A stretch of 64,000 nucleotides of DNA from Lysinibacillus sp. FJAT-14745. GTDB taxonomy: Bacteria; Bacillota; Bacilli; Bacillales_A; Planococcaceae. The notes below the pieces were generated by a model, which saw only the letters and a list, made by a program, of their open reading frames with translations, searched no databases and was not told the DNA's origin. The position numbers and the translations under genes are program-made. Every line of letters begins with the position of its first letter. The stretch's first letter is position 1. The stretch spans positions 78,370-142,369 of the forward strand of contig NZ_LITM01000006.1 of assembly GCF_001275675.1 (NCBI RefSeq), given 5' to 3'. Shown piece after piece: positions 2,791-28,191 of the stretch.

Positions 2791-2793
2791 AGG

Positions 2794-3116: not shown

Positions 3117-3147
3117 AAACCATAACAAGTAAAGGGTGATAAAAATA

Positions 3148-4416: not shown

Positions 4417-7400
4417 ATACTTTAAAGAAGCTATCAATTTCCAAACAGAGTCCTGTGTCTGAATCCTCTTCTACCGAAGTTCATGCCAATGACATTGCGA
4501 TTATTGGCCTAAACGCAGAAATTGGAAGTGCTAAAAACGTCGAGGAACTCTGGGGAAATCTGTGCAATGGCTTTGATTTGATACGAGATTTCCCAGAAGA
4601 ACGTTGGGGAGATGCTAATCGGTTGCATCAATTGAAGTTTCACAAGCCGTTGTCTGAAGAACTGATTCCGTGCTCCTATCTGGATCGATTGGATCAGTTT
4701 GATGCAGGACTGTTCCAGCTTTCTCGGACAGAAGCGGAAGTGATGGACCCAGCTCAACGGTTATTTCTCGAGTCGGCCTGGTCCGCATTGGAGGATGCCG
4801 GATACGGCGGGGTCCAGTTGAAAGGGAGCAAAACTGGGGTGTTTCTAGGGTATAGAAGCGAGTATAACTCTTACGGTGCGATGATTGGAGCGGCTGACGC
4901 TAATACATACGGCGTCGCGTTATCCGGGAATTTGGATGCGATTATTGCAAGCCGGATCAGTTACTTGTTGAATCTGAAAGGGCCGGCGGTAAACATCGAC
5001 ACTTCTTGCTCATCCTCGTTGGTGGCCGTACATCTTGCCTGCCAGCAAATCAGAGACGGCGAGATTTCAATGGCGCTAGCGGGTTCCATTCGTTTGAAGA
5101 CGGTGCCGCCTGTGCAGGTCGATAAAAAGATGGGAATAGAGTCCTCTTCCGCCCGAACAAAAACATTCGATGACCTTGCAGATGGTACCGGTGCAGGCGA
5201 AGGTGTCATCTGCATCGTTCTCAAGTCGCTCCGGCAGGCTATACGGGATCGTGATAATATCTATGCAGTTATCAAGGGCAGCAGCATTAACCAAGATGGT
5301 GCATCTGTCGGCATCACCGCACCGAATGCAGAGGCACAGGAAGAGGTCATCCGTGACGCATGGAAGAATGCCGGAATTAATCCGGAATCGATTTCCTATA
5401 TCGAGGCGCATGGTACGGCAACGAATCTTGGCGACCCGATCGAAATCAGCGGCATTGAACGAGCATTCGGCCGTTTTACTGACAAAAAACAATTTTGTGC
5501 CGTCGGTTCTGTGAAGACAAATGTCGGCCATCTTGACTGCGCTGCAGGGCTGGCTGGTTTACTAAAAGCGGTCTTGATGCTAAAGAACAAGAAAATACCG
5601 CCTACACTCCATTTTGAGGTGCCGAACCGTAAGATCGACTTTAGTTCGTCTCCTGTTTATGTCAATGACAAATTGATGCCATGGGAACCGGGAGACAGTC
5701 CGAGAAGATGCGGGGTCAGCTCCTTTGGAATGAGCGGGACGAACTGCCATCTGGTTCTGGAGGAAGCGCCCATGCTGGACGGCACTGAGACAAGTGCCGC
5801 TCCTGTACGAGTCTTGACTGCCTCGGCTAAGAACAAAGATACGGTTCTGCATTTACTTAAGAAGTATCAGGCCCATCTCAAGCAGTTTCCAAATTGCAAC
5901 TTGGCCGATTTCTGCTATACGGCCAACATCGGCCGCGGACATTACAACTATCGCTTTGCGATGGTCCTCGATTCGGTCGATGATTTTGTAAATATAGCCT
6001 TTGACCAAAGTCTGCTTGACGATGAACGTTGCTTCTATCACGAGCACAAAGTAATCGATACGGAAACGCAGTTGGAGGGATATATCTCTTCCTCTTGGAA
6101 AAAGACGCTGACCGAGCAAGCAACACTGTTGATCGAACAAGCTGCAGGGGAGCATGATGCCGCTGCGTACAAGTTTCTGTTGCAAGAGATAGTGAAGCTG
6201 TATGTCCAGGGTGCGGATGTTCCATGGGAGCGGCTATATAAAAAGGAAGCCCGGCACAGACTGAGCATTCCTACCTATCCTTACAATCACAAACGCTACT
6301 GGATTACGCTTCCCGACAAGAAAATTCCGTTGCTGCAAAAAAAGGAAAAGGCAAAGCTCCATCCCTTGATTCATCAATGCGTCCTAGATACCCATCAAAT
6401 GCAAGTGTATGAAACTGAGTTAAGCATCGATACCTGCTGGGAACTGAAGTACCACAAGATCAACGGCGTACATGTACTGCCAGGAACCGCCTTTATCGAG
6501 ATGGCTCAGTTTGTCAGTAGACGGTATTTGAAACGCGATCGTTTCGAGCTCCAGGAACTTATCTATATGATTCCGCTTGTCTGTAAGGTAGATGAGGTAC
6601 GGACCGTTCACACAATGGCGAAAATGGAAGACTCCGTGTTGACTATCACCTGCTACAGCAAAAATGAAGACGAACACGAGTGGACGAGTCATCTGGAACT
6701 GGTGGTTCGAGAAGAGTGTGAACAAGTCGACTTTATCTTACATTCGGATGAAATTATCAACCGCTGTGAACAGGTGGATAGGTCAAAAAAATTAAACACA
6801 CTGTCGTTCGTCGAGGTCGAAGGAGATAAGTGGAAAAGCTTAAAGAACGTCTATTTAAATGACGAAGAAGTCTTGCTTTACTTTCAAATAAATTCGTCCC
6901 TTTCACAGGAAATGAAAGAGTACTTTTTGTATCCGTCCTTGTTGGATCCGGCGATTAACGGTGGGGGACTCTTTATGTCAAACGTTTGTTTGCCGTTCTC
7001 TTGTTCAAAAGCCAGATTTTATGAAGCGCTACCGGAAAAAATGTACAGTCACATCAAAAGGAAAAACCAAGGCAAGGATACGAATGAATTCATAGCCTTC
7101 GACATTACACTTTTTGCGGATGATGGACGGGTGGTTGCCGAACTGGAGGACTATATCATTAAGAACGTACATCAGCCAGAATTTTTCATGATGAATCAAA
7201 ACAGTCAACATAATATGTACCATGCAACAAGCTGGGTTCCTTATGAAAAAACTTATGCAAACTATTTGGAATACCAAGGCGATAACGATCTTCTTCTAGT
7301 GTTGCACCGTCCTGACCAAGAATCCAGTTCTCTGATAGAACAACTGCATCACCGGTTTGGCCATCGATTGGTGACAGTTCAACTGGCTGAAGAAAATGAT

Positions 7401-9116: not shown

Positions 9117-9144
9117 GAGTAGACACGATTAGGGAGTGAATCAG

Positions 9145-12100
9145 TTGAACAACGTAAAACGATTTATTTTGGATCAGCTCGGCAAACAGTTGTTGTCGCA
9201 GAAAGAAGCGGTCCAATTGTTAAGTGAATTGCAAACGAAAGACACGAAGAACACGCAGGAAATTGCTATTATCGGTACGGCATGTAGATTGCCGATGGCA
9301 GGAGATACTGAAGCGTTCTGGGACAATCTGATTAACGGGAGAACCTGTTTAACACCGAAGCCAGCGGGACATCTGTTCTACGAAGAAGCCTATAAAAATA
9401 AGCACTATGCGGAATTTGTCGGGATGACCGAGGGACTGCCGGATGATACTGAAAATTTGGAAAGTTTCAGTGGCGCTTATGTTGAGCACACGGATAAATT
9501 TGATGCAAACTTCTTCGGCATCCCTCCAAGAGAAGCGCGCTACATCGACCCTGAACAGCGCGTTTTCATGGAAGTGGCTTGGAGCGCAATTGAAGACGCA
9601 GGCTATGGTGCCTCGAATATCAAAAATACCAAAACAGGTGTGTTTGCCGGCAAGGACGGTACCAACTCAATCAACTACAAGTACATTACCGAAGATGATC
9701 CAATGAAACTGATCGGCACCTGGAACGGGATTCTGGCCAGCCGCATCAGCTACCTCTTTAACTTTAAAGGACCAGCGATAGTATTCGATACAGCGTGCTC
9801 CTCCGGTTTAGTTGCGATCCATGAGGCGTGCAACGCGATTCGAAATCAGGAATGTGAAATGGCGCTCGCTGGCGGGATTTCTATTGGCGCGGGTGGCACA
9901 AGAACGGATGAAGAAGAAGAGATAGACGGCGATGACAGCCTCGTGCAGGCCTTATCGTCCAGTGACAACCGGGTGCGTTCTTTTGATAAAAAGTCCACTG
10001 GTACTGTTTTTGGTGAAGGTGTTGTCGTGTTTCTGCTGAAGCCGCTCGCCAAGGCGGTAAAAGACCGTGACCATATCTATGGTATTATCAAAGGCAGTGC
10101 CATCAACAATGACGGTGCTTCCAACGGTCTGACTGCTCCGAACCCGCTGGCACAGGAAGAAGTGATCATCGACGCGTGGAAACGGGCAAAGGTCTCGCCT
10201 GAGACGATCAGCTACGTGGAAGCGCACGGGACGGCTACACTGCTCGGCGACCCAATTGAGGTCCTTGGTCTCTCGAATGCCTTCTTGAAATTCACTGATA
10301 GAAGACAATTTTGTGGTATTGGTTCGCTCAAGACCAATATTGGCCATACGATCGGTGCTTCGGGGGCTGCTAACCTGCTGAAAGTGGTTTTGTCCATGAA
10401 TCACCACACGTTGCCACCGAGCCTGAACTTTGAAGAACCGAACCCGCATATCAACTTCATGGAATCAGCGACCTATGTCGTAGACAAAGTCACTCCTTGG
10501 GATAACGAAGAACAGCCACTGCGCGCAGGTATCAGTTCCTTCGGGTTCAGTGGAACCAATTGCCATATGATTGTTGAGGAATATAAAACTCCGCTGGAAA
10601 TGGAGACGGTCACAGACAAGACCAACATCCTGACGCTGTCTGCAAAAACCGAGACGGCCATGATCAATATAATCAAGAATTACAAGAAGTTCCTCGAAAA
10701 CAAGACCGATCTGAACATGAACGATGTTTGTTTCACAGCCAATACGGGACGCGGGCATTACGTCTACCGCTTGGCTTTGGTTGTCAACAGCTTGGATGAA
10801 TTGAAGGGGAAAATTGATTTGGTTGCAGCAAATGGTTTGAAGTCCATCGAGGACGAGAAGATCTATTACAGCAAGAACAATGTTGTATCCGACAAGCGTC
10901 AACAAAAGCTGGAAGGCGAAATTTCGGAAAGTGAACTACGCATTTTCACGACCCAAGCCAAAGCTATCATCGACACACTGAAGGATCATGCAGACGATGA
11001 GGATTATCGGACGAAGCTTGTTAATTTATGTGCCTTGTATGTCAAGGGTGCCAATGTGGACTGGACACGGCTGTATACTACTGAGCTTGTCAAGCGCATC
11101 CCGCTTCCAACCTATCCGTTTGACAGAATTCATTACTGGGGCGACGTCAAAAAGACCAAAATCAAGAGCGAAGATGTCGAGGATACTCAAACGCTCCATC
11201 CTTTGGTCGAGAAGTGCCTAGTTGATTCCATGAAACAAAACATTTACCTGGTGAACTTCAATCTGAAGAAACATTGGGTACTGCAGGATCACAAAATCAT
11301 GGGCGGCAATCTTCTGGCCGGAACAGCTTTTATTGAAATTATCAAGGAATCATTCCGTCAATGTTTTGACAACGAGAACATCGTGATTAATAACATTGTA
11401 TTCCTTTCTCCATTGGTGGCTTCTGTTGAAGATGAGGATATAGAAACCCACATCGTGATCACCAAGGAACAGGGCGAAACGAGCTTCACGGTCGTCTCTA
11501 GACATGCGGACGCAAACGGCGAAATCTGGATCGAACATGCAAAAGGTAGTGCGTCTTTCCATGAGGACACGGCTACGAAGCAACTTGATTTTGGCAGCAT
11601 TTTGACGGACCCTGAGGTGGAAGAACTTCCGTTAAAGACTAAGGTGGATGAAAATGGAATGAACGCCTTCGGAGAAAGATGGAGCTGCGTGCAGCACTTC
11701 TACCGGAAAAAGGACGAGGAAGGCGAAACCATCTTTACAGAAGTTAAGCTTCCCGACAAGCTATCGAAGGATTTGGAAGAATACGCTTGCCACCCTGGCA
11801 TAATGGACACGGCTATCAATATGGCTACCATGCAACTCTATGCCGGCGGAGATTTCTTCTTGCCGTTCTCTTACAAGAACTTGAAGTTCTACAGAAGACT
11901 TCCAGGACATTTCTACAGCAAAATTAGAAAGATTCCAAAGGGCAACGATTCCGAACTCATGAGCTTCCAGGTTACCCTTGTAGATATGGAAGGAAACACC
12001 ATCGCCGAGGCAGAAGAGACTTCGCTGAAGAAAATCAACAAAATTCATGAGTACGTGACCAGTTCCTTCTATGGATTGCGCTGGACTCCACAAGCGGCGG

Positions 12101-14043
12101 AAGAGCGAGAATTTTCGATTCCAGAAGGCAACATCTTGATTTTAGCGGATCGCTCCGGCTTTGCGAAAGAACTGACGGACCGCATCCAAACGGCAGACAA
12201 CAATCTGTATTTCGTTTCCTTCGGCGAAGTCTATGCACAGCTTGATTCGACGCACTATACCGTTGGCGGAGCGGAAGAGGATTATGTGAAGCTGTTGGAA
12301 GACATTGGGGTGGATACGTTCTCGACCGTCTATCACCTGAGCACTCTTGATTTCAACCAATCGGACTATACCTTGGAACAATACCCAGAGACTTTGAATC
12401 AGGGGTTGTACAACCTTGCCTATCTGACAAGAAGCTTCCTTAAAAAGATTAACGGCAACGTCAACTTTGTCCTCGTGACAGAGCATGCGCACGATGTAGA
12501 CGGGGAAGAAGCTTATATCAAACCTGCTAACGCATCTTTCTTGGCTCTAGCTAAAACTACCCAAGCGGAATGCCCGGAATACGAATACAGAAGCATCGAC
12601 ATCGATTCCCGTACCGATATGAATACTGTCTTGAATGAAGTACTTCGTAGCGGGGAGCAAACCTTCCGTGTCGCATATCGCAACAATGTCCGATATACAG
12701 AAGTGCTGACAGCCCTGGATGTTCAGCGTGACGATATCGAGGTAGTCAAAATCAAAAAAGAAGGTGTCTACCTGATCACTGGCGGTACTGGCGGTCTGGG
12801 CCTTGAAACCGCGTTGAATTTAGGCGGCTTGGGACCATGCAACATCTGTTTGATCGGTCGCAGACAACTGCCTGAGCGTTCCGAATGGGAAGCTGTACTG
12901 AAAAAAGATAAAGACAAAAAAGCATCCGACCTGATCCGCGGAATCCAGCGTCTTGAAAGCAAAGGATGTAATGTCATCCTGCGCTATTCGGATGCGTGTG
13001 ATGTAGAACAGATGACCAGTATTACCGAGGAGCTGAAGAAGGTGTATGGCCATATTAACGGAGTCGTCCATTGTGCGGGCGTTGCGGGCGACGGCTTCCT
13101 GTTCCGCAAAGACATGGACGTATTCAATCGTGTCATAAATCCGAAAATCTACGGCACTATCATCTTAGATCAGTTGACAAGAGATCAGGAGCTTGACTTT
13201 TTCATCCTGTTCTCATCGATGCAAAGTTTGTTCGGCGGACCAGGGCAAGGCGATTATACTGCGGCTAATACATTCCTTGACTCATACGCTCCGTATTTGT
13301 GGAAGAAAGGCTTGGCAGCCCAAACCATCAACTGGTCAGGCTGGAGTGAAACAGGCATGGCGGTCGACTATCAAGTGAACGATTCTAATACCCTGTTCCG
13401 TTCGCTCGAGACTCAGGTCGCGATCAACGCATTGAACAACGTCATAAACTCCAACATGAGCAACGTGGTTCCAGGTAAAATCAACTTTGATGTACTCGGC
13501 CAAATCGGAGCAGACAACCTACCGTTTGCACTGTCCGCTGGTCTGAAAAAGAACTTGGCGCGTCAAAAAAGCAAGAACCGCGATATGGGAAGCAATGAAG
13601 TGAAACAATTGCTAAACCCAGAAGATCTGGTGATCTTGGGCAAGAGCAAGGAGTACACCGAAACAGAGAAAAATGTAGCCTACCTCTACGCTATCGTATT
13701 GGATTTGAAGGAAATCGACATCTACGAAAACTTCAATTCCGTCGGCGGTGACTCTATCCACGCCATGCAGTTGCTGAAAGAATTGGGTGCTCTGTATCCA
13801 GGTATGGTTGACGTTTCAGATATCTTTACCCATCCAACGGTCGAAGAACTTGCCGAATTTATCGATAAGAAGAGAGGCGTCGGCAAGGAGAATATCGTGG
13901 ACGAGGTGATTGCGCAAAAGTCGGAAGAAGAGTTGTCCGACCAAGTGTTAATGGAATTACTGGATAACATAGAGAAGGGCGATTCCTCACTTGATGATGC
14001 ACTGGTTATTCTGAATGAAGTGGGGGAAGGTCAAGATGAGTAG
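9145..14043 (+). CDS. Trans-AT polyketide synthase module: KS-DH-KR-ACP
   Basis: Second AT-less module, about 1632 residues, with the same domain order as its neighbour. The N-terminal ~35 residues (ILDQLGKQLLSQKEAVQLL) resemble a docking helix pair. KS: Cys218 (DTACSSGL), His361, His401. DH region: His716 in HKIMGGNLLAG, where the usual proline is Ala725; Asp888 and Asn892 form D-x-x-x-N. KR: GGTGGLG near 1213, Ser1358, Tyr1371, B-type aspartate retained. ACP: Ser1537 in SVGGDSI, closer to the classical GxDS than the first module. The end is acidic. I prefer TTG 9145, with AGGGAG 8 bases upstream; GTG 9136 overlaps that site. The stop overlaps the next gene by 8 bases. Confidence 0.94.
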   Translation: MNNVKRFILDQLGKQLLSQKEAVQLLSELQTKDTKNTQEIAIIGTACRLPMAGDTEAFWDNLINGRTCLTPKPAGHLFYEEAYKNKHYAEFVGMTEGLPDDTENLESFSGAYVEHTDKFDANFFGIPPREARYIDPEQRVFMEVAWSAIEDAGYGASNIKNTKTGVFAGKDGTNSINYKYITEDDPMKLIGTWNGILASRISYLFNFKGPAIVFDTACSSGLVAIHEACNAIRNQECEMALAGGISIGAGGTRTDEEEEIDGDDSLVQALSSSDNRVRSFDKKSTGTVFGEGVVVFLLKPLAKAVKDRDHIYGIIKGSAINNDGASNGLTAPNPLAQEEVIIDAWKRAKVSPETISYVEAHGTATLLGDPIEVLGLSNAFLKFTDRRQFCGIGSLKTNIGHTIGASGAANLLKVVLSMNHHTLPPSLNFEEPNPHINFMESATYVVDKVTPWDNEEQPLRAGISSFGFSGTNCHMIVEEYKTPLEMETVTDKTNILTLSAKTETAMINIIKNYKKFLENKTDLNMNDVCFTANTGRGHYVYRLALVVNSLDELKGKIDLVAANGLKSIEDEKIYYSKNNVVSDKRQQKLEGEISESELRIFTTQAKAIIDTLKDHADDEDYRTKLVNLCALYVKGANVDWTRLYTTELVKRIPLPTYPFDRIHYWGDVKKTKIKSEDVEDTQTLHPLVEKCLVDSMKQNIYLVNFNLKKHWVLQDHKIMGGNLLAGTAFIEIIKESFRQCFDNENIVINNIVFLSPLVASVEDEDIETHIVITKEQGETSFTVVSRHADANGEIWIEHAKGSASFHEDTATKQLDFGSILTDPEVEELPLKTKVDENGMNAFGERWSCVQHFYRKKDEEGETIFTEVKLPDKLSKDLEEYACHPGIMDTAINMATMQLYAGGDFFLPFSYKNLKFYRRLPGHFYSKIRKIPKGNDSELMSFQVTLVDMEGNTIAEAEETSLKKINKIHEYVTSSFYGLRWTPQAAEEREFSIPEGNILILADRSGFAKELTDRIQTADNNLYFVSFGEVYAQLDSTHYTVGGAEEDYVKLLEDIGVDTFSTVYHLSTLDFNQSDYTLEQYPETLNQGLYNLAYLTRSFLKKINGNVNFVLVTEHAHDVDGEEAYIKPANASFLALAKTTQAECPEYEYRSIDIDSRTDMNTVLNEVLRSGEQTFRVAYRNNVRYTEVLTALDVQRDDIEVVKIKKEGVYLITGGTGGLGLETALNLGGLGPCNICLIGRRQLPERSEWEAVLKKDKDKKASDLIRGIQRLESKGCNVILRYSDACDVEQMTSITEELKKVYGHINGVVHCAGVAGDGFLFRKDMDVFNRVINPKIYGTIILDQLTRDQELDFFILFSSMQSLFGGPGQGDYTAANTFLDSYAPYLWKKGLAAQTINWSGWSETGMAVDYQVNDSNTLFRSLETQVAINALNNVINSNMSNVVPGKINFDVLGQIGADNLPFALSAGLKKNLARQKSKNRDMGSNEVKQLLNPEDLVILGKSKEYTETEKNVAYLYAIVLDLKEIDIYENFNSVGGDSIHAMQLLKELGALYPGMVDVSDIFTHPTVEELAEFIDKKRGVGKENIVDEVIAQKSEEELSDQVLMELLDNIEKGDSSLDDALVILNEVGEGQDE

Positions 14044-16042
14044 TAGACAGGTACAGCTTCAAGAACTAAACAAGCAGATCATCAACATGGTGAGGGATGG
14101 AAAAATGAGTAAGCAATTGGCTTTTAGCCTTCTAAAAGAGCTTACCAGCCGAAATGATGGCGGGCAGAAAAGTGATGTTGCTGTAGTCGGACTGTCCCTC
14201 AGATTTCCGGGTGCGAACAATCTGCAAGAATATTGGGATCTGTTGAAGAAAGGAGAGAGCAGAATTGGAAGCTTCCCGCCGTCAAGGCGGGAAGATATCT
14301 ATCCAATACTGCCTGATGCTCTGCGCTCCGCAAAAGACCCTTTTCTTCAAGCCGGTTATCTTGAGGAAATCGATAAGTTTGATGCCGCTTATTTCCAGAT
14401 TTCACCTGACGAGGCGGAACTGATGGATCCATATCATCGCCTGTTCTTAGAGGTAGCCTATGAAGCGCTAGAAGACGGAGGATACGGCGGAGACAGTCTC
14501 AACGGAAGCAAAACGGGTGTCTATGCCGGAATTGATCATACGCACAAAGCTAATTTCTCTTATTTGCATCTCATCAAGAATCCAGATTTTTTTGCCATGA
14601 CAGGTTCGAAGACGGCGATTCTCGCTAGTAGGGTCTCCTATTCGTTAAACCTGAACGGACCAAGCATGGTGTTCGACACGGGTTGCTCCTCTTCTGCGGT
14701 GGCTTTGCATGCGGCTTGTAAAGCGCTGCAAAACAAGGAATGCGACTTGGCACTGGCAGGAGGGATCAACCTGCTCATGCTTCCGCTCGATGTCGGTATG
14801 CTCAGTCCGATCGAGGCGGTCGGTGGCGAGGTTAAACCTTTCGACAAGGACGCAACGGGTGCCTGTTGGGGAGAAGGTGTTGGGGTAGTGCTATTAAAGC
14901 CTCTCAACAAAGCCCTTGAAGACGGGGACACTATCTATAGCGTGATAAAAGGGAGTGCGGTAAACACCAACGGCGCTTCTAACGGGATTACTTCCTTTAA
15001 TGCAGAAGCCCAAAAGGATCTGCTTTTGACTGCCTGGAAGGACGCCAGAATCAAACCGGAAACCATTTCCTACATTGAGGCACATGGTATGGGTACGCTG
15101 GTCGGCGATGCCATGGAGGTCAGTGGACTGAACAACTCCTTCAGGTTCCATACCCATGAAACCCAGATCTGTGGGATCGGCTCAGTGAAAGCAAATATCG
15201 GGCATCTGGTAGGTGCTTCGGGAATGGCCTCGTTGTTCAAGGTGATCCTCTCCTTCAACAAGGGGTTGATTCCTGCTACCTGCAATTATCGGGAGCCTAA
15301 CCCTACGATTAATTTCAATGATTCGGCCGTTTATGTGGTGGACAAACCCACACCTTGGGAGAAATCCAAGGAAGCACGTAGAGCGGGCATTAGCTCTTTC
15401 AGCCTTAGTGGAACAAACTGTCACTTTGTGGTTGAAGAACCGCCTCACCACGCTCCGGCTGTGGTAGATGGTAAACACCAACCACACGTCTTTGTATTGT
15501 CTTGCCGAACAAAGGTAGCGCTAGAACGATTAGTGGAACGCTATCATACCTATTTGGTAAGCAATGATTCTAACAGCCTCGATGATATTTGCTTCACTTC
15601 CAGCGTGGGCAGAGGGCATTACCGCTACCGAATTGCGATAATAGCAAGCACTCTCGAGGAACTGAAAGAGAAAATCGATGTGCTGAATGCCCAAGGGATA
15701 GAGCATGTAGAGCAGACAGACGTCTTTTGTGGCGAACACAGCATTGTTCCAAGCACCAAGTGGGATAGGAATTGTAGCGAGATCACCGAAGGCGAAAAAA
15801 GGCAGATGAGCAAGTCTGTTAGCGCATTGATCGCACAGGAAACAGATAAGGACTGCACCGATCTGCTCGAAACCATTTGCGTGAAATACGTACAAGGTGC
15901 AGATGTTGACTGGAAGCAGCTTTACTTGGATCGAAAAACGCGCAGGGTCAACCTGCCAGTATATCCTTTGGAGCGGACGAGGTATTGGATAAAAGTTGCT
16001 CAAGATCAGAAAAAAGACGATTTGTCTGTGACAATCAAGTAA
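14036..16042 (+). CDS. Trans-AT PKS ending after KS and linker; no ACP or release domain
   Basis: This 668-residue protein has an N-terminal docking-like helix (LNKQIINMVRDGKMSKQLAF), one complete ketosynthase and the post-KS linker ending in YPLERTRYW; then it stops. Cys217 (DTGCSSSA), His350 (EAHGMGT) and His390 (KANIGH) are intact, so the KS should be catalytically competent, though the EAHG loop reads GDAMEV where GDPIE is usual. No DH, KR, ACP or thioesterase follows, and none is encoded downstream in the cluster. It may condense with a carrier protein in trans, take part in chain release, or be the front half of a split module. ATG 14036 with GGGGGAAGG upstream is a clear start. The stop is clean, with no sign of a frameshifted remainder. 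Confidence 0.93.
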   Translation: MSSRQVQLQELNKQIINMVRDGKMSKQLAFSLLKELTSRNDGGQKSDVAVVGLSLRFPGANNLQEYWDLLKKGESRIGSFPPSRREDIYPILPDALRSAKDPFLQAGYLEEIDKFDAAYFQISPDEAELMDPYHRLFLEVAYEALEDGGYGGDSLNGSKTGVYAGIDHTHKANFSYLHLIKNPDFFAMTGSKTAILASRVSYSLNLNGPSMVFDTGCSSSAVALHAACKALQNKECDLALAGGINLLMLPLDVGMLSPIEAVGGEVKPFDKDATGACWGEGVGVVLLKPLNKALEDGDTIYSVIKGSAVNTNGASNGITSFNAEAQKDLLLTAWKDARIKPETISYIEAHGMGTLVGDAMEVSGLNNSFRFHTHETQICGIGSVKANIGHLVGASGMASLFKVILSFNKGLIPATCNYREPNPTINFNDSAVYVVDKPTPWEKSKEARRAGISSFSLSGTNCHFVVEEPPHHAPAVVDGKHQPHVFVLSCRTKVALERLVERYHTYLVSNDSNSLDDICFTSSVGRGHYRYRIAIIASTLEELKEKIDVLNAQGIEHVEQTDVFCGEHSIVPSTKWDRNCSEITEGEKRQMSKSVSALIAQETDKDCTDLLETICVKYVQGADVDWKQLYLDRKTRRVNLPVYPLERTRYWIKVAQDQKKDDLSVTIK

Positions 16043-16141: not shown

Positions 16142-17527
16142 TTGAATACTAATTTAGGTAAAGATCTTACAGTCGGAAATGCAGGAACCCTACTAATGGG
16201 CATGTGGATTCCCCTTGTGATTGGATCGATGTTCACGATGGGATACAGCATCATCAATGCCATATGGGTTGGTCAAATCCTTGGCAGCAAAGAGATGGCC
16301 GGCGTGGCTGTGACTATGCCGATCGTCCAATTGATGGGCGCACTGGCCACAGGGATCATGACAGCTGTATCAATCCTGATTGCCCGATATTACGGAGCTA
16401 AAGAAGAAGGACAGATGAAAAACATCGTGTTTCATGGTTGGGTGATCACTGCGATGTTAATCATTTTAGTCACAGGTGGCGGTATCCTGTTCTGCGATCC
16501 CCTGTTAAGGGCAATGGGAACACCTGAGGATGTGCTGACACTCACGTCCGGTTACATGAAGATTATCTTCGCCAGCTTCATTTTCTCCACGATACTCTCC
16601 TTGGTCTCCTCGATCTTGCGAGGAGTGGGAGATACGAAAAAACCGATGGTATTTGTGCTCCTCTCGATCATCATCAATGCTATTCTTGACCCGTTGCTGA
16701 TTATGGGTGTTGGTCCGATCCCGCAGATGGGACTAAACGGAGCAGGGCTGGCTTCGCTGCTGTCATCGGCTATAGCAGGCGTATTTGCCTATGGATACAT
16801 GAAAAAGCAGTCTGGCAATCTAATCAAAATAGCAATATCTAAGCTCGACTTCGCTGTTATCAGGGATATCTTGAAAATTGGCATTCCGACAGCCGGGCAG
16901 CAACTGCTCTTTGCCTTCGGTGCCATCTTCATGGTGGTGTTCGTAAATACATATGGCGTTTCAGCCATCGCAGCGTACGGCGCGGTAACCAGAATCGAAT
17001 ATTTTGTCATACTACCTGGTATAGCTATGTCAATGGCGCTGTCCATCATTATTGGGCAAAATCTAGGGGCCGGAAAAACGGAACGCGTCAAAGAATTCTT
17101 CAAATCGGGTATCATCATCGGCTCTGTTTACACGATCCTAGTATCTATCCTCACGATCGTCTTCCCGAAAGCACTAATGTCTATGTTTTTGGATGATCCT
17201 ACGGCGCTAGAAGTAGGAATCGACTATTTTCGAATGGTCGGGTTTTCCTATATCTTAATATCGATCATGTTTGTTCTAAACGGAATTATCAACGGAGCAG
17301 GAAAAACCATCATCTCCCTGATGCTGTCGTTCGTGTCCATCTGCCTGGTACGGATTCCCCTTGCGGGATACCTACCATACACCGGCATGGGGATCAAGGG
17401 GATATGGGCAGCTTTCATGATCGGTTCTGCGGTCAGTGTGATTCTTTTTATAACTTACTACTACTCTGGGCACTGGAAAAATAGTACAATTGTAAATGAT
17501 AAGCCGATTGAACAGTCATTAAATTAA
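16142..17527 (+). CDS. MATE-family multidrug/metabolite efflux protein
   Basis: A 461-residue integral membrane protein with about twelve hydrophobic segments arranged as two similar halves, as in the MATE (NorM/DinF-like) family of cation-coupled antiporters. Typical traits are the early LLMGMWIPLVIGSM helix and the second-half LKIGIPTAGQQ segment. The start is TTG, with AAGGTGAC just upstream. It sits between the PKS and thioesterase genes on the same strand, so its likely job is export of the cluster product or self-resistance; this is inference from position. A second, unrelated exporter (ABC type) is encoded immediately downstream, so the cluster carries two independent export routes. 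Confidence 0.92.
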   Translation: MNTNLGKDLTVGNAGTLLMGMWIPLVIGSMFTMGYSIINAIWVGQILGSKEMAGVAVTMPIVQLMGALATGIMTAVSILIARYYGAKEEGQMKNIVFHGWVITAMLIILVTGGGILFCDPLLRAMGTPEDVLTLTSGYMKIIFASFIFSTILSLVSSILRGVGDTKKPMVFVLLSIIINAILDPLLIMGVGPIPQMGLNGAGLASLLSSAIAGVFAYGYMKKQSGNLIKIAISKLDFAVIRDILKIGIPTAGQQLLFAFGAIFMVVFVNTYGVSAIAAYGAVTRIEYFVILPGIAMSMALSIIIGQNLGAGKTERVKEFFKSGIIIGSVYTILVSILTIVFPKALMSMFLDDPTALEVGIDYFRMVGFSYILISIMFVLNGIINGAGKTIISLMLSFVSICLVRIPLAGYLPYTGMGIKGIWAAFMIGSAVSVILFITYYYSGHWKNSTIVNDKPIEQSLN

Positions 17528-17596: not shown

Positions 17597-18307
17597 ATGA
17601 AAACGATCAAATTATTTTGTATCCCCTACTCAGGGGGATCGGCCGAAATCTATTGGAAGTGGAAAAAGTCTTTATACAATCACGTTGAGTTGTGTCCACT
17701 TGAGATCGGAGGGCGGGGAAAGCGCATTTGCGAATCGCTTCCTGATCGATTTGAGAATGTCGTCGAAGATTTGGCTACTGCCATCATGGATCAGTTGGAG
17801 TCAAACGAGAGATACGCGATTTTTGGACACAGCATGGGATCCTTGCTTGCTTTTGAAACCTATTACAAACTGATGGAAAAAGGTTGCCACGCGCCTTGTC
17901 ATATGTTTTTCAGCGGGAGGTCTGCACCTCAAAGTCCCCGAGACAAAACCTCCTACCATCTGTTGCCGGATAAGGAGTTCTTAAAAGTCGTATTGAGTTA
18001 TGGTGGCAACACCGAGGGAATTCTCGGCAACGAAGAGCTTTTGCAACTGTTTGTACCTATCCTAAGAGCAGATTTCAAAATCAGCGAAAGCTATGAGTAC
18101 GAAGAAAAAAGCAAAAAAATCGCTTCGGATATTACCGTGATTAACGGAAACAACGATCGAAGTGTTGCAAATTTTGACATAAATGATTGGAGGCTCCATG
18201 CAGGAAAGAAATGTGAAATCAAGAGAGTAATCGGAGGGCACTTTTTTATTACCGAAGACCCCCTGTATGTCGTAGATATTATCAATCACGCATTGCAAAA
18301 CGTTTGA
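17597..18307 (+). CDS. Type II thioesterase of the NRPS/PKS cluster
   Basis: A 236-residue alpha/beta hydrolase of the GrsT/SrfAD type, which removes wrong acyl groups from carrier domains and restores stalled assembly lines. Visible traits: N-terminal CIPYSGGSA (oxyanion loop), nucleophile Ser79 in GHSMGS, an Asp in the NGNND segment, and catalytic His215 in GGHFF. The length is normal for the family. ATG 17597 has a strong AAGGGGGTG upstream. It is a discrete protein rather than a fused domain. Because no C-terminal thioesterase is fused to any visible synthetase, it could also take part in product release, but editing is the usual role. Confidence 0.93.
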   Translation: MKTIKLFCIPYSGGSAEIYWKWKKSLYNHVELCPLEIGGRGKRICESLPDRFENVVEDLATAIMDQLESNERYAIFGHSMGSLLAFETYYKLMEKGCHAPCHMFFSGRSAPQSPRDKTSYHLLPDKEFLKVVLSYGGNTEGILGNEELLQLFVPILRADFKISESYEYEEKSKKIASDITVINGNNDRSVANFDINDWRLHAGKKCEIKRVIGGHFFITEDPLYVVDIINHALQNV

Positions 18308-18320
18308 GGAGGGAATTAGG

Positions 18321-19253
18321 ATGATCATTGAAGTAACGGGTCTGGTAAAAAAGTACAAGGATTATACAGCTGTAAACGGTGTTGATTTGAGTATTGACGA
18401 AGGTGAAATATTTGGCTTGCTAGGACCTAACGGTGCAGGCAAATCGACAACGATGAATACGTTGTTGGGCTTGTTAAGAGTCAACAACGGCACAGTGAAG
18501 ATGTTCGGCAAGGATTTTTCCAAACATGCGAGAGAAATTAAACGATCTGTCGGATATGTGCCGCAGGAATACGCTTTTTTCGAGACCTTAAGCGCCATTG
18601 ACAATGTGACGTATTGGGGTAAGTTATATGGATTGCGTGGCGAAAAGTTAGATAAAGCCGTGCAGGAAGCGCTAGAGTTTACCGGACTCTGGAACAGAAG
18701 AAAAGGCATTGCTAAGACTTTTTCGGGTGGTATGAAGAGGCGTCTAAACATCGCTTGTGCGATTGTACATAAGCCGCGTATCCTGTTTATGGATGAACCG
18801 ACGGTCGGAATCGATCCCCAATCGCGCAACAATATTCTGGAATCAATCAAAATCATGAATCAAAATGGGATGACTATCATCTATACGACACATTACATGG
18901 AAGAAATCGAGGCCATCTGCGAACGAGTTGCCATCATGGACTTTGGCAAAGTGATCGCACTAGGAAGCATCGAAGAGCTGATCGATTCCATTTCGACAGG
19001 AACTCGCTTGAGCCTGGAGCTGGTATCGAATACCGAAATTGCCATTTCAGTGATTGAAAAGACGGAAGGCATCATAGCATGCAATAACATAAACGGAGTA
19101 CTTGACATCCATTTGGAAAAAAACGAGAAGTCCCTTACGGCATTATTGGAAAATCTAATCCAGGATGGATTTGGAATTAAATCCATGACGATGGAAAAAC
19201 CGAATCTGGAGACGGTGTTCTTGCAGTTAACGGGTAAAAAACTGAGAGACTAA
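18321..19253 (+). CDS. ABC transporter ATP-binding protein (ABC-2 exporter)
   Basis: A 310-residue ATPase with Walker A GPNGAGKST, Q-loop YVPQEY, signature FSGGMKRR, Walker B ILFMDEPTVG and the H-loop histidine in YTTHYMEEIE. The C-terminal ~80 residues match the regulatory extension of DrrA/CcmA-like ABC-2 ATPases. It lies 13 bases after the thioesterase and is followed by two permease genes, making a typical drug or lipid exporter of one ATPase and two membrane subunits. The expected role is efflux of the cluster product; the substrate is inferred from context. Confidence 0.94.
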   Translation: MIIEVTGLVKKYKDYTAVNGVDLSIDEGEIFGLLGPNGAGKSTTMNTLLGLLRVNNGTVKMFGKDFSKHAREIKRSVGYVPQEYAFFETLSAIDNVTYWGKLYGLRGEKLDKAVQEALEFTGLWNRRKGIAKTFSGGMKRRLNIACAIVHKPRILFMDEPTVGIDPQSRNNILESIKIMNQNGMTIIYTTHYMEEIEAICERVAIMDFGKVIALGSIEELIDSISTGTRLSLELVSNTEIAISVIEKTEGIIACNNINGVLDIHLEKNEKSLTALLENLIQDGFGIKSMTMEKPNLETVFLQLTGKKLRD

Positions 19254-19273
19254 TTCGAGATGGTGGTGAAACT

Positions 19274-20407
19274 ATGAATATTCTTACACAAATTTTTTAT
19301 TCAGGAAAGCGGATCCTGATGGATCCTAAACCAATCTTCGTCAGATTGCTCAGTTTTATGGTGATTATCTTAATATTGGGTACAGCATTCAAAAACCAGT
19401 TTAGTGTTACCTCCTTGGATAAAGTTAAGGTTGCCTACAGCAATGCGGATTCTGGTCAACTTGGTGAACTGTTCATCAAGTCTATGATCGGTTCAGAAGA
19501 AATTAAATCTTTGGCGGAGTTTGAACAAGTTCACTCTCTTGATGAGGGACGAGAGATTTTAAACAACGAAGAGGCAGTTGCGTTTATCTTTATTCCTGAT
19601 GGATTCTCCAAGCAAGGAGAATCTGAAGGGACAAGTAAAACGATTGAAGTCTATCTTGCCAAATCTTCTGGCGTGGATACGACAATCGTCCGGAATGTCG
19701 TGGACAGTCTGGTGAATGGCATGAATACTGCAGGCGTAGTCGCTACCATGTCGGGCAATTTGCAAATGGAACAAGCGAATTCGGATACTAGTTTGGAAGA
19801 AGTACCTCTAACCAATTCCAAATCGGCGACAGCGATAGGGTATTATTCCATTGCGATGCTTCTGATGTTTCTGTTACGCGGCCAGGAATACGGCGCGTCC
19901 GGGATGGGAGAGGATTATTTGGGCACAGTGGGTGATCGGCTCAAGCTTTCGCCGATTAAACCTTTTGAACAATACCTAGGTAAAACGATTGGTCTTTCCT
20001 TGGTCACCTTCTTGCAGGGCATGGTGATTATCCTATTTACAAAATATGTATACGACGTTGATTGGGGGAACCACTTTGCTGTTATCGTTTTGGTCGTCTT
20101 TGTGTTCTCCTTATTATCCACGACGCTCGGTGGAATGTTAACCATTCTCACCCAGGATTCCGTAAAAGCCGACGCTATTGCCAACATTGTGACCCTGGGG
20201 TCAACTTTCCTTATTGGCGGCTTTGTCATTGTTGATTTTGGAGCCTTCGCAGCAATTGCCCCAAGCTATTATGCAAAATCGGCAATATTCAATGTCGTGT
20301 ATAACGATCAGCTAGGTCCTGCTTTTGTGAATATTGGTCAGATGTTGGCTATCACGATGTTATTCGCGGTGACTAGCATTTTGGTTTCAAGGAGGAAAAG
20401 AGCATGA
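19274..20407 (+). CDS. ABC-2 type permease subunit 1
   Basis: A 377-residue ABC-2 permease: one N-terminal membrane helix (LLSFMVIILILGTAF), a large extracytoplasmic segment of about 150 residues, then five or six C-terminal helices (around IAMLLMFLL, VTFLQGMVIILF, FAVIVLVVFVFSLL, LGSTFLIGG, MLAITMLFAV). This topology is that of YhgE/Pip-like and DrrB-like exporter subunits. Its last codons overlap the next permease gene by 4 bases (ATGA), so the two are translationally coupled. The two permeases are similar in plan but not obviously recent duplicates. Confidence 0.9.
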   Translation: MNILTQIFYSGKRILMDPKPIFVRLLSFMVIILILGTAFKNQFSVTSLDKVKVAYSNADSGQLGELFIKSMIGSEEIKSLAEFEQVHSLDEGREILNNEEAVAFIFIPDGFSKQGESEGTSKTIEVYLAKSSGVDTTIVRNVVDSLVNGMNTAGVVATMSGNLQMEQANSDTSLEEVPLTNSKSATAIGYYSIAMLLMFLLRGQEYGASGMGEDYLGTVGDRLKLSPIKPFEQYLGKTIGLSLVTFLQGMVIILFTKYVYDVDWGNHFAVIVLVVFVFSLLSTTLGGMLTILTQDSVKADAIANIVTLGSTFLIGGFVIVDFGAFAAIAPSYYAKSAIFNVVYNDQLGPAFVNIGQMLAITMLFAVTSILVSRRKRA

Positions 20408-21528
20408 CAATCTTATTCAACAGCATAAAACGGATATTTCGCAAACGAACAAACATCTTGTTTATGCTTGTGATTCCGATCCTACTGAATATGTTTTTGA
20501 TTTCAGCTGTAACCAAAGATGTAAAATATAATTTAGGCATACTGGATCAGGATTCTACCCCGTTCACAGAGGACTTTGTCTCGAAAATGCAAGAAAAATA
20601 CAATGTAACATTATTGACCCCAAGCGACGATGTGAAGGGCTTAGTTGTCAACAAAAAACTGGACATCGCTTTTACTTTTCAATCGGGATTCACTGCAGAT
20701 ATGCTTGAAGGGAAAGATGTTGCTGCTCTTAGCTATGCCCTTGAAGCTTCCAATGTGGCGAAACCCGTTCAAGTGTACGTGTCCAGTTACATATCGTCTG
20801 CGAAACAAATTGCGACATCTGCAAAAGGGAATGAAGATGTATTCTATAAGGGGATGGAGGCTTACAATAAGAATACATTTGCGGCTGAATATAAGAATTT
20901 TTCCACAGAGTTCTCTGAAAAAGACGTGAGCAATGCGGTTACCTCCTTGGGATTCATCGCGTTTGGTATGCTGCTTCTGATTACCTTCTCTACAAGCTTG
21001 ATTCTGGAGGATAAGCTTACCGGAGTCTATGATCGAATCACCGCAACACCGCTAACACGCTCCAGTTATTTCTCACAACATATGTTAGCTAGCTTCCTTG
21101 TTGCAGCGATTCAGGTTCTGCTGTTAATCAGTTTTTTACCGGACATGGTCGATATATCCTATGGTTCAACGCCAAATCAGAAACTAGAGGTCATCGTAGT
21201 TTGTCTTGCGTTCGTCCTTGCCTGCGTAGCCATTGGCGTAGCTATCAGCAGATTTTCAAAAAGCGCACTGATGGCAAGCTCTCTTACGGCTTTGATCAAT
21301 ATCCCGATGCTGATGCTCGGTGGATGTTTTTGGCCTAGAGAAATCATGCCAGATTTTATGCAGCGAATCAGTGAATTTATGCCGACGACTTGGTTTTTAC
21401 AAGCAGGGGAGACTGTTTTGTACGGCAAAAGTTTAAACGGTGCCATCTCTGAATTATCATATTTGATTTGCTTTGCTGTTTTGTTGTTGATTGTAACATT
21501 TGCCTTTAAGTCGGAAAAAGTGAGATAA
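20404..21528 (+). CDS. ABC-2 type permease subunit 2
   Basis: A 374-residue ABC-2 permease with the same plan as its upstream partner: N-terminal helix (NILFMLVIPILLNMFLI), extracytoplasmic domain, then C-terminal helices ending with the FAVLLLIVTFAF segment. The motif MLMLGGCFWPREIMP near residue 300 is typical of the loop between the last helices of ABC-2 exporters. It is the last gene of the biosynthetic cluster; after its stop, the sequence changes within ~70 bases to a fragment of accC. Confidence 0.9.
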   Translation: MTILFNSIKRIFRKRTNILFMLVIPILLNMFLISAVTKDVKYNLGILDQDSTPFTEDFVSKMQEKYNVTLLTPSDDVKGLVVNKKLDIAFTFQSGFTADMLEGKDVAALSYALEASNVAKPVQVYVSSYISSAKQIATSAKGNEDVFYKGMEAYNKNTFAAEYKNFSTEFSEKDVSNAVTSLGFIAFGMLLLITFSTSLILEDKLTGVYDRITATPLTRSSYFSQHMLASFLVAAIQVLLLISFLPDMVDISYGSTPNQKLEVIVVCLAFVLACVAIGVAISRFSKSALMASSLTALINIPMLMLGGCFWPREIMPDFMQRISEFMPTTWFLQAGETVLYGKSLNGAISELSYLICFAVLLLIVTFAFKSEKVR

Positions 21529-21574
21529 ATACAATTAAACTTCAGTCATGTTAAGTGCATCCCATGGTCAAGGG

Positions 21575-21613
21575 GTATAGAGGAAGCCTATACGTTCTTA
21601 AATCTTTAAGAAC
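21575..21613 (+). other. Two adjacent inverted repeats at the right cluster junction
   Basis: GTATAG and CTATAC (21575-21580, 21588-21593) pair across 7 bases and are followed directly by GTTCTTAAA-tc-TTTAAGAAC (21594-21613), a perfect 9-bp inverted repeat. The second arm runs into the accC fragment, so the stems sit exactly on the junction between cluster and chromosome. They may end the cluster transcript or mark a recombination site. No T-run follows. Confidence 0.6.
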
Positions 21614-21719
21614 AACAATTCCTTTCCACCAAGCATTAATGAACAATGACGTTTTCAAATCTACGCAGTTCAATACGAAGTTCCTTGAAGATAATGATGT
21701 TTTGGAGACAAGTAAGTAA
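21606..21719 (+). pseudogene. accC: 3' fragment of accC (biotin carboxylase C-terminus)
   Basis: The frame reads LRTTIPFHQALMNNDVF followed by KSTQFNTKFLEDND and a TAA stop. This matches the last ~37 residues of Bacillales AccC, the biotin carboxylase subunit of acetyl-CoA carboxylase. Homology breaks at the Arg-Thr-Thr residues; upstream in this frame there are stops, and the ABC permease gene ends at 21528. It is therefore a truncated remnant, not a gene. In Bacillus accB-accC-yqhY-nusB-folD is the standard order, and yqhY and nusB do follow here, so this is the residual chromosomal side of the cluster insertion. accC is essential in relatives, so an intact copy is predicted elsewhere, probably left of the window. 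Confidence 0.82.
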
Positions 21720-21766
21720 ATGTTTCGTTAACAACGGAATAGAACGCTAACGTCTATTTCTTTATA

Positions 21767-21799
21767 CCTTCTGACTTTACTAGTCAGGAGGTTTTTTAT
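21767..21799 (+). terminator. Rho-independent terminator after the accC fragment
   Basis: CCTTCTGACT pairs with AGTCAGGAGG across a 5-base loop and is followed by TTTTTTATTT. It was probably the native accC terminator and may now stop cluster read-through. Confidence 0.85.
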
Positions 21800-21838
21800 T
21801 TATCACCGTTCAGGCTTATTTGATTTAATTTAACAGTA

Positions 21839-21864
21839 TTGACACCTTTTATGAAGCGTATAAT
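21839..21864 (+). promoter_or_regulatory. Possible sigma-A promoter of the small membrane protein gene
   Basis: TTGACA and TATAAT are both exact but only 14 bases apart, shorter than the usual 17. A second TATAAT lies at 21875 without a good -35 box. Either could serve the small gene at 21926. Confidence 0.35.
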
Positions 21865-24690: not shown

Positions 24691-24752
24691 TAGTATAATA
24701 AGCGTAAGTACAGCATTTGTTTGTGATGTGTAAGGGAAAGGATGATATTTGT

Positions 24753-25163
24753 ATGGCAGAGAAAGTAGGACAATCTTTCGTACAACCAACGCCTTCTGGA
24801 AAAGAAGAACTTGGGAAAATTGAAGTAGCAGCGGAAGTAATCGAGGTTGTTGCTGGAATCGCAGTGAACGAGGTAGAAGGGGTCGCGGCAACTCGTGGTA
24901 ATATTGCTACAGGCGTAGTAGAACGCTTCGGTAAAAAAGTTCACAATAAAGGCATCAAATCGGGTGTTACTGAAACTGGTGAGATTGCCATTGATGTATT
25001 TTGCTCTGTAAAATACGGCTATACAATCCCAAAAGTGGCGAAGGAAGTACAAACTCAAATTCGCCAAGCGATTTTTAATATGACAGCACTTGAAACAGCA
25101 GAAGTGAATGTACACATTACTGGTATTCACTTTGAAAAAGAAGAAGTAGCAGTACAAGAATAG
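24753..25163 (+). CDS. yqhY: Asp23/Gls24-family protein YqhY
   Basis: This 136-residue cytosolic protein of the Asp23 (alkaline shock) family has the typical IEVVAGIAVNEVEGVAATRG core at about 29-48 and a C-terminal TALETAEVNVHITGI strand pair. In B. subtilis yqhY follows accB-accC and is linked to control of acetyl-CoA carboxylase activity; this is family knowledge, not visible here. The position supports the assignment: an accC remnant lies upstream, and nusB-folD downstream. ATG 24753 has AAAGGA 10 bases upstream. About 3 kb of small genes now separate it from the accC tail, and an MFS gene separates it from nusB. Confidence 0.9.
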   Translation: MAEKVGQSFVQPTPSGKEELGKIEVAAEVIEVVAGIAVNEVEGVAATRGNIATGVVERFGKKVHNKGIKSGVTETGEIAIDVFCSVKYGYTIPKVAKEVQTQIRQAIFNMTALETAEVNVHITGIHFEKEEVAVQE

Positions 25164-26416: not shown

Positions 26417-26479
26417 ATTGTTCTCCTTCAATCTTTCACGATACATGAATCTAAGTCTACTAGAATATTACCATTTCAT

Positions 26480-26910: not shown

Positions 26911-27291
26911 ATGAAACGACATGAAGCACGCGAAAAAGCGTTGCAAGTTTTGTTTCAGCTAGACAATACCGATCTAACAGTAGAAGAAGCAATGGGTCAT
27001 ATTAAAGGCCAGCCAACAAATGTCTTCTACGAAAAGATTGTTACTGGAACAGTTGAACATTTGGAGGAAATCGATGCTGCTTTAGAACAGCATCTTGAAA
27101 AGTGGTCACTTGCCCGTTTACCTAAGATTGAAAGAACGGTTTTACGTCTAGCTGTATACGAAATTTTATACATGCCAGAAACACCAAAAAGAGTAGTACT
27201 TAATGAAGCAATCGAGTTATGCAAAACATTTGGAGACGATGGTTCGTCGAAATTTGTTAATGGCGTACTTTCTAAATTTACAGAACAATAA
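26911..27291 (+). CDS. nusB: Transcription antitermination factor NusB
   Basis: A 126-residue all-helical RNA-binding protein which, with NusE (S10), assembles antitermination complexes on boxA of rRNA operons. The N-terminal basic RHEAREKALQVLFQLD motif, the central KWSLARLPKIERTVLRLAVYE helix region and the C-terminal NEAIELCKTFGDDGSSKFVNGVL are characteristic. The length is normal. AAGGAG lies well placed before ATG 26911. It is the first gene of the conserved nusB-folD-xseA-xseB-ispA-dxs-tlyA-argR-recN run. Confidence 0.97.
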   Translation: MKRHEAREKALQVLFQLDNTDLTVEEAMGHIKGQPTNVFYEKIVTGTVEHLEEIDAALEQHLEKWSLARLPKIERTVLRLAVYEILYMPETPKRVVLNEAIELCKTFGDDGSSKFVNGVLSKFTEQ

Positions 27292-27324: not shown

Positions 27325-28191
27325 ATGTCAAGTGCAATTATTAATGGTAAAGAAATTGGTCAAGAAATTCGTAATTCAGTAGCAGAGCGAGTAACACGTT
27401 TAAAAGAGCAAGGATTAACACCAGGCTTAGCGGTTGTTTTAGTAGGAGACAACCAAGCCTCGGCTACATATGTGAAAAATAAGCAAAAATCTTGTGAAGC
27501 CATTGGTATGTTTTCTGAGTTAATCAAACTGCCAGAAGAAACTACGCAGGATGCATTATTAGCACAAATTGAATTATTAAATAATCGTGAAGATATTCAT
27601 GGTATTTTAGTACAATTACCACTCCCAAAACATATTGATGAGGATACTGTTATTGCCACAATTGCTGTTGAAAAAGACGTTGATGGCTTCTCACCAGTAA
27701 GTGTTGGGAAAATGATGCTTGGCCAAGAAACATTTTTGCCTTGTACACCGTTTGGCGTAATGAAGCTTCTTGAATATTCAGGAATTGAAATAGCAGGAAA
27801 GCATGCGGTCATCGTGGGTCGTAGTCATATTGTTGGGAAACCAATGGGACAACTTCTTCTACAAAAAGATGCAACCGTTACATACACGCATTCCAAAACA
27901 CCAAATTTACCTTCATTCACTAAACAAGCAGATATATTAATTGCGGCAGTGGGACGTGCAAACTTTATTACGAAGGAACATGTTAAAGACGGCGCAGTTG
28001 TTATAGATGTTGGCATTAATCGTAATGAAAACAACAAGCTTTGCGGTGATGTTAACTTCAGTGAAGTCGATGGTATTGCTTCTCACATTACACCTGTACC
28101 AGGCGGCGTAGGACCAATGACAATTACTATGCTACTATTCAATACAGTTCAAGCAGCAGAAAATAAGCTTGCTCATATAGTTAAGTTATAA
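27325..28191 (+). CDS. folD: Bifunctional methylenetetrahydrofolate dehydrogenase/cyclohydrolase FolD
   Basis: This 288-residue cytosolic enzyme interconverts 5,10-methylene-THF, 5,10-methenyl-THF and 10-formyl-THF using NADP. Key motifs: the catalytic YVKNKQKSCEAIG segment near 50-62 with the active lysine, the conserved ILVQLPLPKHI loop near 95-105, the nucleotide-binding VGRSHIVGKP near 165, and the C-terminal TPVPGGVGPMT. It starts 33 bases after nusB with GGAAGGAG upstream and ends at a strong terminator. Confidence 0.97.
   Translation: MSSAIINGKEIGQEIRNSVAERVTRLKEQGLTPGLAVVLVGDNQASATYVKNKQKSCEAIGMFSELIKLPEETTQDALLAQIELLNNREDIHGILVQLPLPKHIDEDTVIATIAVEKDVDGFSPVSVGKMMLGQETFLPCTPFGVMKLLEYSGIEIAGKHAVIVGRSHIVGKPMGQLLLQKDATVTYTHSKTPNLPSFTKQADILIAAVGRANFITKEHVKDGAVVIDVGINRNENNKLCGDVNFSEVDGIASHITPVPGGVGPMTITMLLFNTVQAAENKLAHIVKL

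Follow-up and report, generated by a model that had tools for sequence, protein, structure and literature searches.

Islands integrated by tyrosine integrases at the 3′ ends of genes are a known kind of mobile DNA. SGI1 and its kin are described as integrating site-specifically at the 3′ end of trmE, 18 bp from the end of the gene, with tandem and secondary-site integration also reported and with SGI1 itself mobilizable (PMC6531882, PMC8409611, PMC2297512). IME8 of Lysinibacillus sphaericus is described as an island that targets yolD (in the order acnL-yolD-uvrX) with a short att sequence and requires int1, int2, and hp3 (PMC13239906). The dusA-targeting integrases are presented as using one site in one protein-coding gene across many genomes (PMC4482086), and the Dehalococcoides islands at ssrA as occupying the ends of structural-RNA genes (PMC3146451). 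The macrobrevin biosynthetic cluster of Brevibacillus sp. DP1.3A is reported on predicted genomic islands (PMC9867215). In the titles and abstract openings of the open-licence literature searched, accC is not named as an integration target; the text matches to "accC" that were checked refer to accC lying 10 kb from a prophage or to these letters within a DNA sequence.

The locus described here is from Lysinibacillus sp. FJAT-14745 (genome G000). The window is the whole stretch of DNA that was analyzed, 64,000 nucleotides of contig C26 (C26:78370-142369), and positions given without a contig are those of the window. It contains part of a cluster of NRPS and PKS genes that closes with a MATE transporter, a thioesterase, and an ABC exporter, as assigned with Pfam. 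The features are listed below.

10..2790, + strand, NRPS gene, part (condensation, adenylation, and carrier domains; Pfam)
3136..4416, + strand, acyltransferase (Pfam Acyl_transf_1)
4407..9116, + strand, PKS (KS, DH, KR; Pfam)
9136..14043, + strand, PKS (KS, DH, KR, carrier; Pfam)
14015..16042, + strand, PKS ketosynthase (Pfam)
16142..17527, + strand, MATE-type transporter (Pfam MatE)
17597..18307, + strand, thioesterase (Pfam)
18321..19253, + strand, ABC transporter ATPase (Pfam; 93% DNA match at the same locus in L. xylanilyticus)
19274..20407, + strand, ABC-2 permease (Pfam)
20404..21528, + strand, ABC-2 permease, last island gene (Pfam)
21529..21611, + strand, last island DNA, from the exporter stop to the repeat (accC homology begins at 21612 when the left and right copies are aligned side by side)
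21612..21719, + strand, displaced copy of the accC 3′ end, right island boundary (93% over 108 bp to C26:54941-55048; frame and stop)
21766..21792, + strand, terminator-like hairpin in accC-type downstream DNA right of the repeat (pattern scan)
24717..25163, + strand, the gene that we take to be yqhY, first conserved operon gene right of the island (tblastn, loci of relatives)
26911..27291, + strand, nusB (Pfam NusB)
27325..28191, + strand, folD (Pfam THF_DHG_CYH)

An earlier reading of this DNA from its letters alone (the sequence-only reading) had placed the final ~37 codons of AccC, with the natural stop, within ~75 bases of the last ABC permease stop. The tail, its stop, and the adjacency are as described, but the numbers differ: the segment holds the last 35 codons and the stop, which ends at 21719, and the spacing from the permease stop (21528) to the first accC-like base is 83 bases. 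The translation of 21612-21719 is TTIPFHQALMNNDVFKSTQFNTKFLEDNDVLETSK, followed by the stop. The terminator noted after the tail corresponds to the hairpin at 21766-21792, the one observed against a mean of 0.4 in shuffled sequence. The downstream order yqhY, nusB, folD was also read correctly (starts at 24717, 26911, and 27325), although these genes do not directly follow the accC tail; the stretch from the tail to folD also holds a small ORF, a 157-aa lipoprotein-like ORF, two Nudix genes, and an MFS gene. The MFS transporter is at 25247-26446 on the opposite strand, between yqhY and nusB.

The whole genome (5.16 Mb, 29 contigs) was searched with the fragment. The sole other copy is C26:54941-55048, and at 93% over 108 bp (E = 2e-39) the match is not due to chance. 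This copy forms the 3′ end of a complete accC of 452 codons (C26:53690-55048), which lies on the same contig, outside the window and ~45 kb to the left of the fragment. The gene directly upstream of it is presumably accB. The target gene is complete at the left edge of the island, and its 3′ end is repeated directly at the right edge. An intact accC with a matching end, which the sequence-only reading had suggested looking for to the left of the window, is thus present, its last 108 bp repeating 21612-21719; the repeat had been expected to span 21606-21719 and is not an identical one. The insert between the two tail copies is 44.9 kb, an approximate length because N positions make up 4.7 kb of the 100-kb stretch examined in this draft assembly. 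The G+C content of the island is 46.5% (N left out), compared with 38.1% for the left flank and 38.6% for the right flank (right of yqhY), and the cluster is richer in G+C as had been proposed.

It is extremely unlikely that the fragment or its position is an error of assembly. The genome is a draft in 29 contigs and part of the island is N, but the right junction is continuous in the window, and a repeat of this type also occurs in G021, a genome in one contig. With 7% of its positions different from accC, the fragment is no read that was collapsed or repeated. In L. xylanilyticus both of these island ends likewise lie together at accC (see below).

Pieces of a tyrosine integrase were found at C26:55197-55696 in two frames, starting 148 bp after the stop of the intact accC. 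The first trace of this remnant was a weak Pfam match to a SAM-like integrase domain, below the cut-off. The pieces match the intact integrase of L. piscis (G013) at 66% over 82 residues and 84% over 80 residues, and a search of L003, L004, and the window gave no match to the C-terminal half. The integrase next to one attachment site is a decayed remnant in this genome and is intact in G013, G021, G025, and G049. No integrase had been seen on the right side, in agreement with a remnant at the opposite, left end. With its own integrase broken into two frames and missing the C-terminal half, the island can probably no longer move and is most likely fixed unless another integrase acts upon it. 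The first NRPS gene begins at C26:56290, ~600 bp past the remnant.

Site-specific recombination at the 3′ end of accC best explains, with a probability of roughly 0.86, the 45 kb between the accC tails, which would be one integrative element or several that accumulated there. A tyrosine integrase belonging to a Lysinibacillus subfamily would join an element site bearing its own accC-like tail with the chromosomal site, with crossover at or next to ACAACAATTCC, which begins both repeats. The left junction would thereby gain a whole accC, and the right junction would retain the old tail, geneless, beside the old terminator. It is inferred that this integrase was the catalyst, where precisely the crossover took place, which of the two tails the element brought, and that the NRPS/PKS genes were cargo. 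The earlier proposal of a >21-kb cluster entering at the accC 3′ end is supported by the repeat, the integrase pieces, and the flanks in relatives, and the size is revised to 45 kb.

The flanks were compared with the DNA downstream of accC in relatives. The 120 bases after the right stop (21720-21839) give a score of 150 in G003 and 64-78 in G022, G020, G017, and G024, where the best of 50 shuffles is 24-29; the 120 bases after the left stop score only 16-26 in these five genomes. For the left flank, scores of 140-152 were obtained in G007 and G023, and 45-70 in G026, G013, G001, G030, G005, and G029. An integrase or its remnant lies behind accC in six of these left-flank matchers (G023, G026, G013, G001, G030, and G005), and none lies there in G007 and G029. 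The DNA right of the fragment thus appears to resemble the accC downstream DNA of several cluster-free relatives, and the DNA right of the intact gene resembles that of mobile elements. The best right-flank match, G003, carries an integrase remnant of its own, 1 kb behind accC; G022, G020, G017, and G024 have no integrase behind accC. A comparison of the accC-yqhY interval in strains without the cluster had been suggested, and it gave a divided result: these five genomes are like the right flank, and G006, G011, and G016, with gaps near 0.2 kb, match neither flank. G008, also with a short gap, gives a weak match on the right side (44 vs 26). A clean empty accC site was found in none of the very close relatives.

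When accC up to the repeat is joined in silico to the right copy, a frame of 452 codons with a stop is obtained. Over the 31 codons compared, two residues of the right copy occur in none of 36 intact accC genes, and a third change, Gly to Glu, lies two codons further on, at a position that is Gly or Asn in the intact genes. Residues unseen in the 36 intact genes occur in the right copies of this genome, G004, and G026. Seven right copies were compared with their own left copies (G030 was excluded for an indel in its copy) and show 12 synonymous and 5 nonsynonymous codon differences, compared with 4608 synonymous and 348 nonsynonymous differences between the intact accC tails of the genus; three of the seven show no difference. 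By the codon differences and the unseen residues, the older right copies look like displaced gene ends that are now out of use. The two copies of this genome are indistinguishable by sequence alone as the original tail, and the right one is called the original because of its downstream DNA and its decay. The idea that insertion left or duplicated the tail and regenerated the target is upheld by the whole accC at the left; the fragment, in turn, is a displaced and decaying copy, not a working tail.

The interval between accC and yqhY was taken from 31 other genomes of the genus and from 9 genomes among those of the family that gave a match (40 loci). A tblastn match to yqhY is present in every fetched locus but L061, the first stretch taken from L. 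xylanilyticus (DSM 23493, G025), which ends before yqhY. The gap in the genus ranges from 205 bp (G011) to 48 kb (this genome). An integrase or its remnant lies within 1.5 kb after accC in 15 of the 32 genus genomes, including this one, and in none of the other 17, many of which have other DNA in the gap. The integrase is intact in 3 of the 32 (G013, G021, and G025) and in 1 of the 9 family genomes, L. odysseyi (G049). These four proteins are 347-349 aa in length, and contain PF00589; their genes lie 100-101 bp past the stop of accC, and in each case a second accC tail follows 8.8-14 kb downstream. Second tails of at least 90 nt were found in 7 of 32 genus genomes (G000, G004, G013, G021, G025, G026, and G030) and in G049, and shorter pieces of 32-38 nt in G003, G005, and G009. 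Each of the seven genus genomes that has a long second tail belongs to the 15 with an integrase or remnant.

The starting base, at ACRACNATTCC, is shared by seven of the eight long copies, and that of G030 lies within two bases of it. The DNA to the left of this edge differs, though several copies have GGA before it. On its 3′ side the repeat reaches differently far, from 95 nt in G021 to past the terminator in G004. A crossover at the left edge of the repeat fits the constancy of this edge across the long copies, and on these comparisons the accC 3′ end is a docking site used repeatedly in the genus. The edge also bears on the proposal that the second tail arose by duplication or rearrangement through ordinary homologous recombination, with the integrase pieces incidental. 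The tails of some genomes do look homogenized, as by recombination between copies, but the common left edge in seven of eight long copies, the integrase trace in all of those genomes, and the tail repeats beside related integrases at ndk, tRNA-Arg, and tmRNA make this explanation very improbable.

The likeness between tails is nevertheless a point that weighs against site-specific entry of an element with its own tail. In G013, G021, and G025, all with intact integrases, the two tails agree at every one of 95 nt, which is closer than an outside donor should give. The tails of G049, also with an intact integrase, are 95.8% alike, and those of the decayed cases 92.6-97.9%. In G013, 27 of 30 synonymous codons of the tail are as in G025, compared with 0.48 on average and 0.63 in the best window for the body of the gene, and both tail copies look L. 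xylanilyticus-like. The accC of L. sphaericus 2362 (G021) ends in GTSK beside the element and its displaced copy ends in GVAEKVR; accC of its sister G004 ends in GVAEKVK. G009, which is beside G021 and G004 on the tree, has an accC ending in GTSK and carries an integrase remnant. Donation of tails by elements, together with transfer within species or gene conversion, would explain these patterns. A homogenization of tails by the elements throughout the genus was considered and rejected: over 496 pairs the synonymous codon identity is 0.683 for the tail and 0.711 on average for the body, and the tail ranks 19th of 27 windows. For the 66 most distant pairs of the genus the values are 0.628 and 0.531 (rank 6 of 27), and a strong likeness of tail over body is limited to G013.

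The accC of G048, from another genus (L072), has a diverged body, a C-terminus (GVAEKAK) like that of several Lysinibacillus, and 331 bp to yqhY. This short gap could be the scar of a departed element.

The accC elements of the four genomes with intact integrases each contain a second gene with a phage-integrase domain (~190-290 aa), as listed.

L061:12011-12595, second phage-integrase-domain gene (G025)
L049:7224-7805, second phage-integrase-domain gene (G013)
L057:13092-13802, second phage-integrase-domain gene (G021)
L070:13233-14111, second phage-integrase-domain gene (G049)

The PADLOC models give matches to LmuA and LmuB (Lamassu) in the G021 element (L057:8616-12354), to Drt2, below the NCBIfam cut-off, in the G049 element (L070:8745-10145), and partially to PD-T4-1, PDC-S32, and a TIR effector in the G025 element (L061:4545-9788); 4 of the 10 proteins scanned from these three elements gave nothing. 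The G013 element contains a RelA/SpoT-domain gene. An overlapping gene pair (~395 and 193 aa) is common to the elements of G021 (L057:15092-16838) and G049 (L070, oriented 2529-4272), and those of its proteins that were scanned have no Pfam match; the pair is perhaps part of the element backbone. No relaxase, conjugation, or transfer gene was recognized among the element proteins scanned in relatives.

In L. xylanilyticus the order is accC, an intact integrase, a 14 kb element, and then the second accC tail. The DNA at this tail is 92% identical over 309 bp (tail included) to the left end of the present island. Beyond this, DNA like the left end (80%, 616 bp) is followed by the exporter end (93%, 3.3 kb) with no NRPS/PKS genes between them. 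The two island ends meet at the 8-bp TGCAGGAA (L061:17390-17450; G025:C1 about 361502). Since TGCAGGAA occurs at both corresponding places in the full island of this genome, ~40 kb was probably deleted there in G025, from which the right tail copy of the island is also gone. The arrangement is one of tandem accretion at accC. Because G025 holds both island ends at accC, they are linked independently of the assembly of the present genome.

The NRPS/PKS cargo was seen solely in this genome and, as the deleted remnant, in G025. For the PKS gene at 4407-9116, only G025 among the 31 other genus genomes gives a match, at 66-68% in two short places. The thioesterase-exporter DNA (17597-21528) has no close relative in 398 genomes of the class drawn from a larger group, among which G025 is not listed, and the best other match there is 73% over ~720 nt. 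A plasmid source for the exporter end of the cluster was rejected, with only 4 weak plasmid matches covering at most 4% of the query.

This distribution is also what favors a later arrival of the NRPS/PKS genes, for example by homologous recombination or transposition, in an accC island already made by the integrase. The tandem accretion in G025 points the same way, as do the presence of only a decayed integrase in this island and the other, shorter cargo in relatives with intact integrases. The cluster, however, fills the space between remnant and repeat, leaving ~600 bp free at its left end and 83 bp at its right, as the cargo of a single element would; no transposase happened to be noticed in the island, and a later arrival is considered rather unlikely. 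It shares the docking-site model with entry of the cluster as cargo.

The same integrase family is found at other targets. In this genome a related intact integrase lies ~117 bp after the stop of a gene that, from its sequence, we take to be ndk, and the 3′ end of that gene is repeated 17 kb away (124 bp, 98%).

G000 C21:645895-663135, second island of the same type, ndk site (loci L135 and L166)

A second ndk tail of at least 100 nt occurs in 8 of 32 genus genomes (G000, G002, G003, G005, G012, G021, G030, and G031), with shorter pieces in G014 and G018. The neighbors upstream of family integrases were identified with ARAGORN in 21 regions as tRNA-Arg(TCT) in 9, tmRNA in 6, tRNA-Ala in 1, and no RNA gene in 5; two of the last five, in G021 and G030, follow ndk.

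L136, L145-L152, L154, L157, L158, and L161-L164, integrases behind tRNA-Arg(TCT), tmRNA, or tRNA-Ala (ARAGORN)

The related integrases of L153, L156, and L160 have no upstream tRNA or tmRNA, and no gene was recognized there as a target. Second RNA gene ends were found in G023, G029, and G049, all three of the genomes searched. The repeats are ~95-120 bp or more at accC, compared with 31-62 bp at RNA genes (G023 and G029).

A tree was constructed from 28 integrases, picked from the best scores of the family search (73 of 250 genomes matched) and not at random. The accC type forms one side of a branch (100/99), as do the ndk (100/100) and tmRNA (91/84) types, and tRNA-Arg needs 3 changes. The six target labels, including "unknown", require 6 changes on this tree, where the minimum possible is 5 and shuffles average 16.8. 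We tentatively propose that one family may target RNA gene ends (tRNA-Arg, tmRNA) or housekeeping gene ends (ndk, accC) by clade, with elements that would carry working C-termini of these enzymes and exchange them between species. A T-arm-like stretch (AATCC or AATTCC) near the boundaries, seen by eye at a few sites, might have guided the change of target.

A prophage origin and a plasmid source of the integrase were considered and gained no support. In phage records, 15 matches to the integrase were obtained, none above 60% identity or 80% coverage, and a scan of viral contigs with two peptide patterns gave none. Of 72,556 plasmids, 41 match the integrase, none above 60% identity.

The locus shows how a conserved operon region can take up a large NRPS/PKS cluster with the target gene unbroken, and the accC-to-yqhY interval is a fixed address at which island cargo can be read in Lysinibacillus genomes. 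The integrase clades by target (accC, ndk, tmRNA, and tRNA-Arg), with tail repeats at each, are a natural series for tests of target change. For site-specific integration in this genus, the intact accC-type integrases might be useful tools.

Among the matches listed, SGI1 at trmE is the nearest protein-coding example. As described, it resembles the present island in its position near the 3′ end of a conserved protein-coding gene and is set apart by its target, trmE at 18 bp from the end compared with accC at ~108 bp from the end here; SGI1 is also reported to be mobilizable, whereas no transfer function was found among the scanned accC-element proteins of relatives. IME8 is likewise a Lysinibacillus island with tyrosine recombinases and a fixed chromosomal site, and differs by its target, yolD, by its need for int1, int2, and hp3, and by its short att sequence. 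The dusA integrases share the use of one protein-coding gene across genomes, but the reported site is at the 5′ end of dusA. Macrobrevin is similar, by description, as a biosynthetic cluster on a genomic island of a related bacterium, and that description contains no accC site (PMC9867215). The ssrA-type islands are like the present family in that its integrases are also found behind tmRNA and tRNA genes; the accC subfamily differs from them, as they are described, in using a protein-coding gene and leaving a longer repeat.
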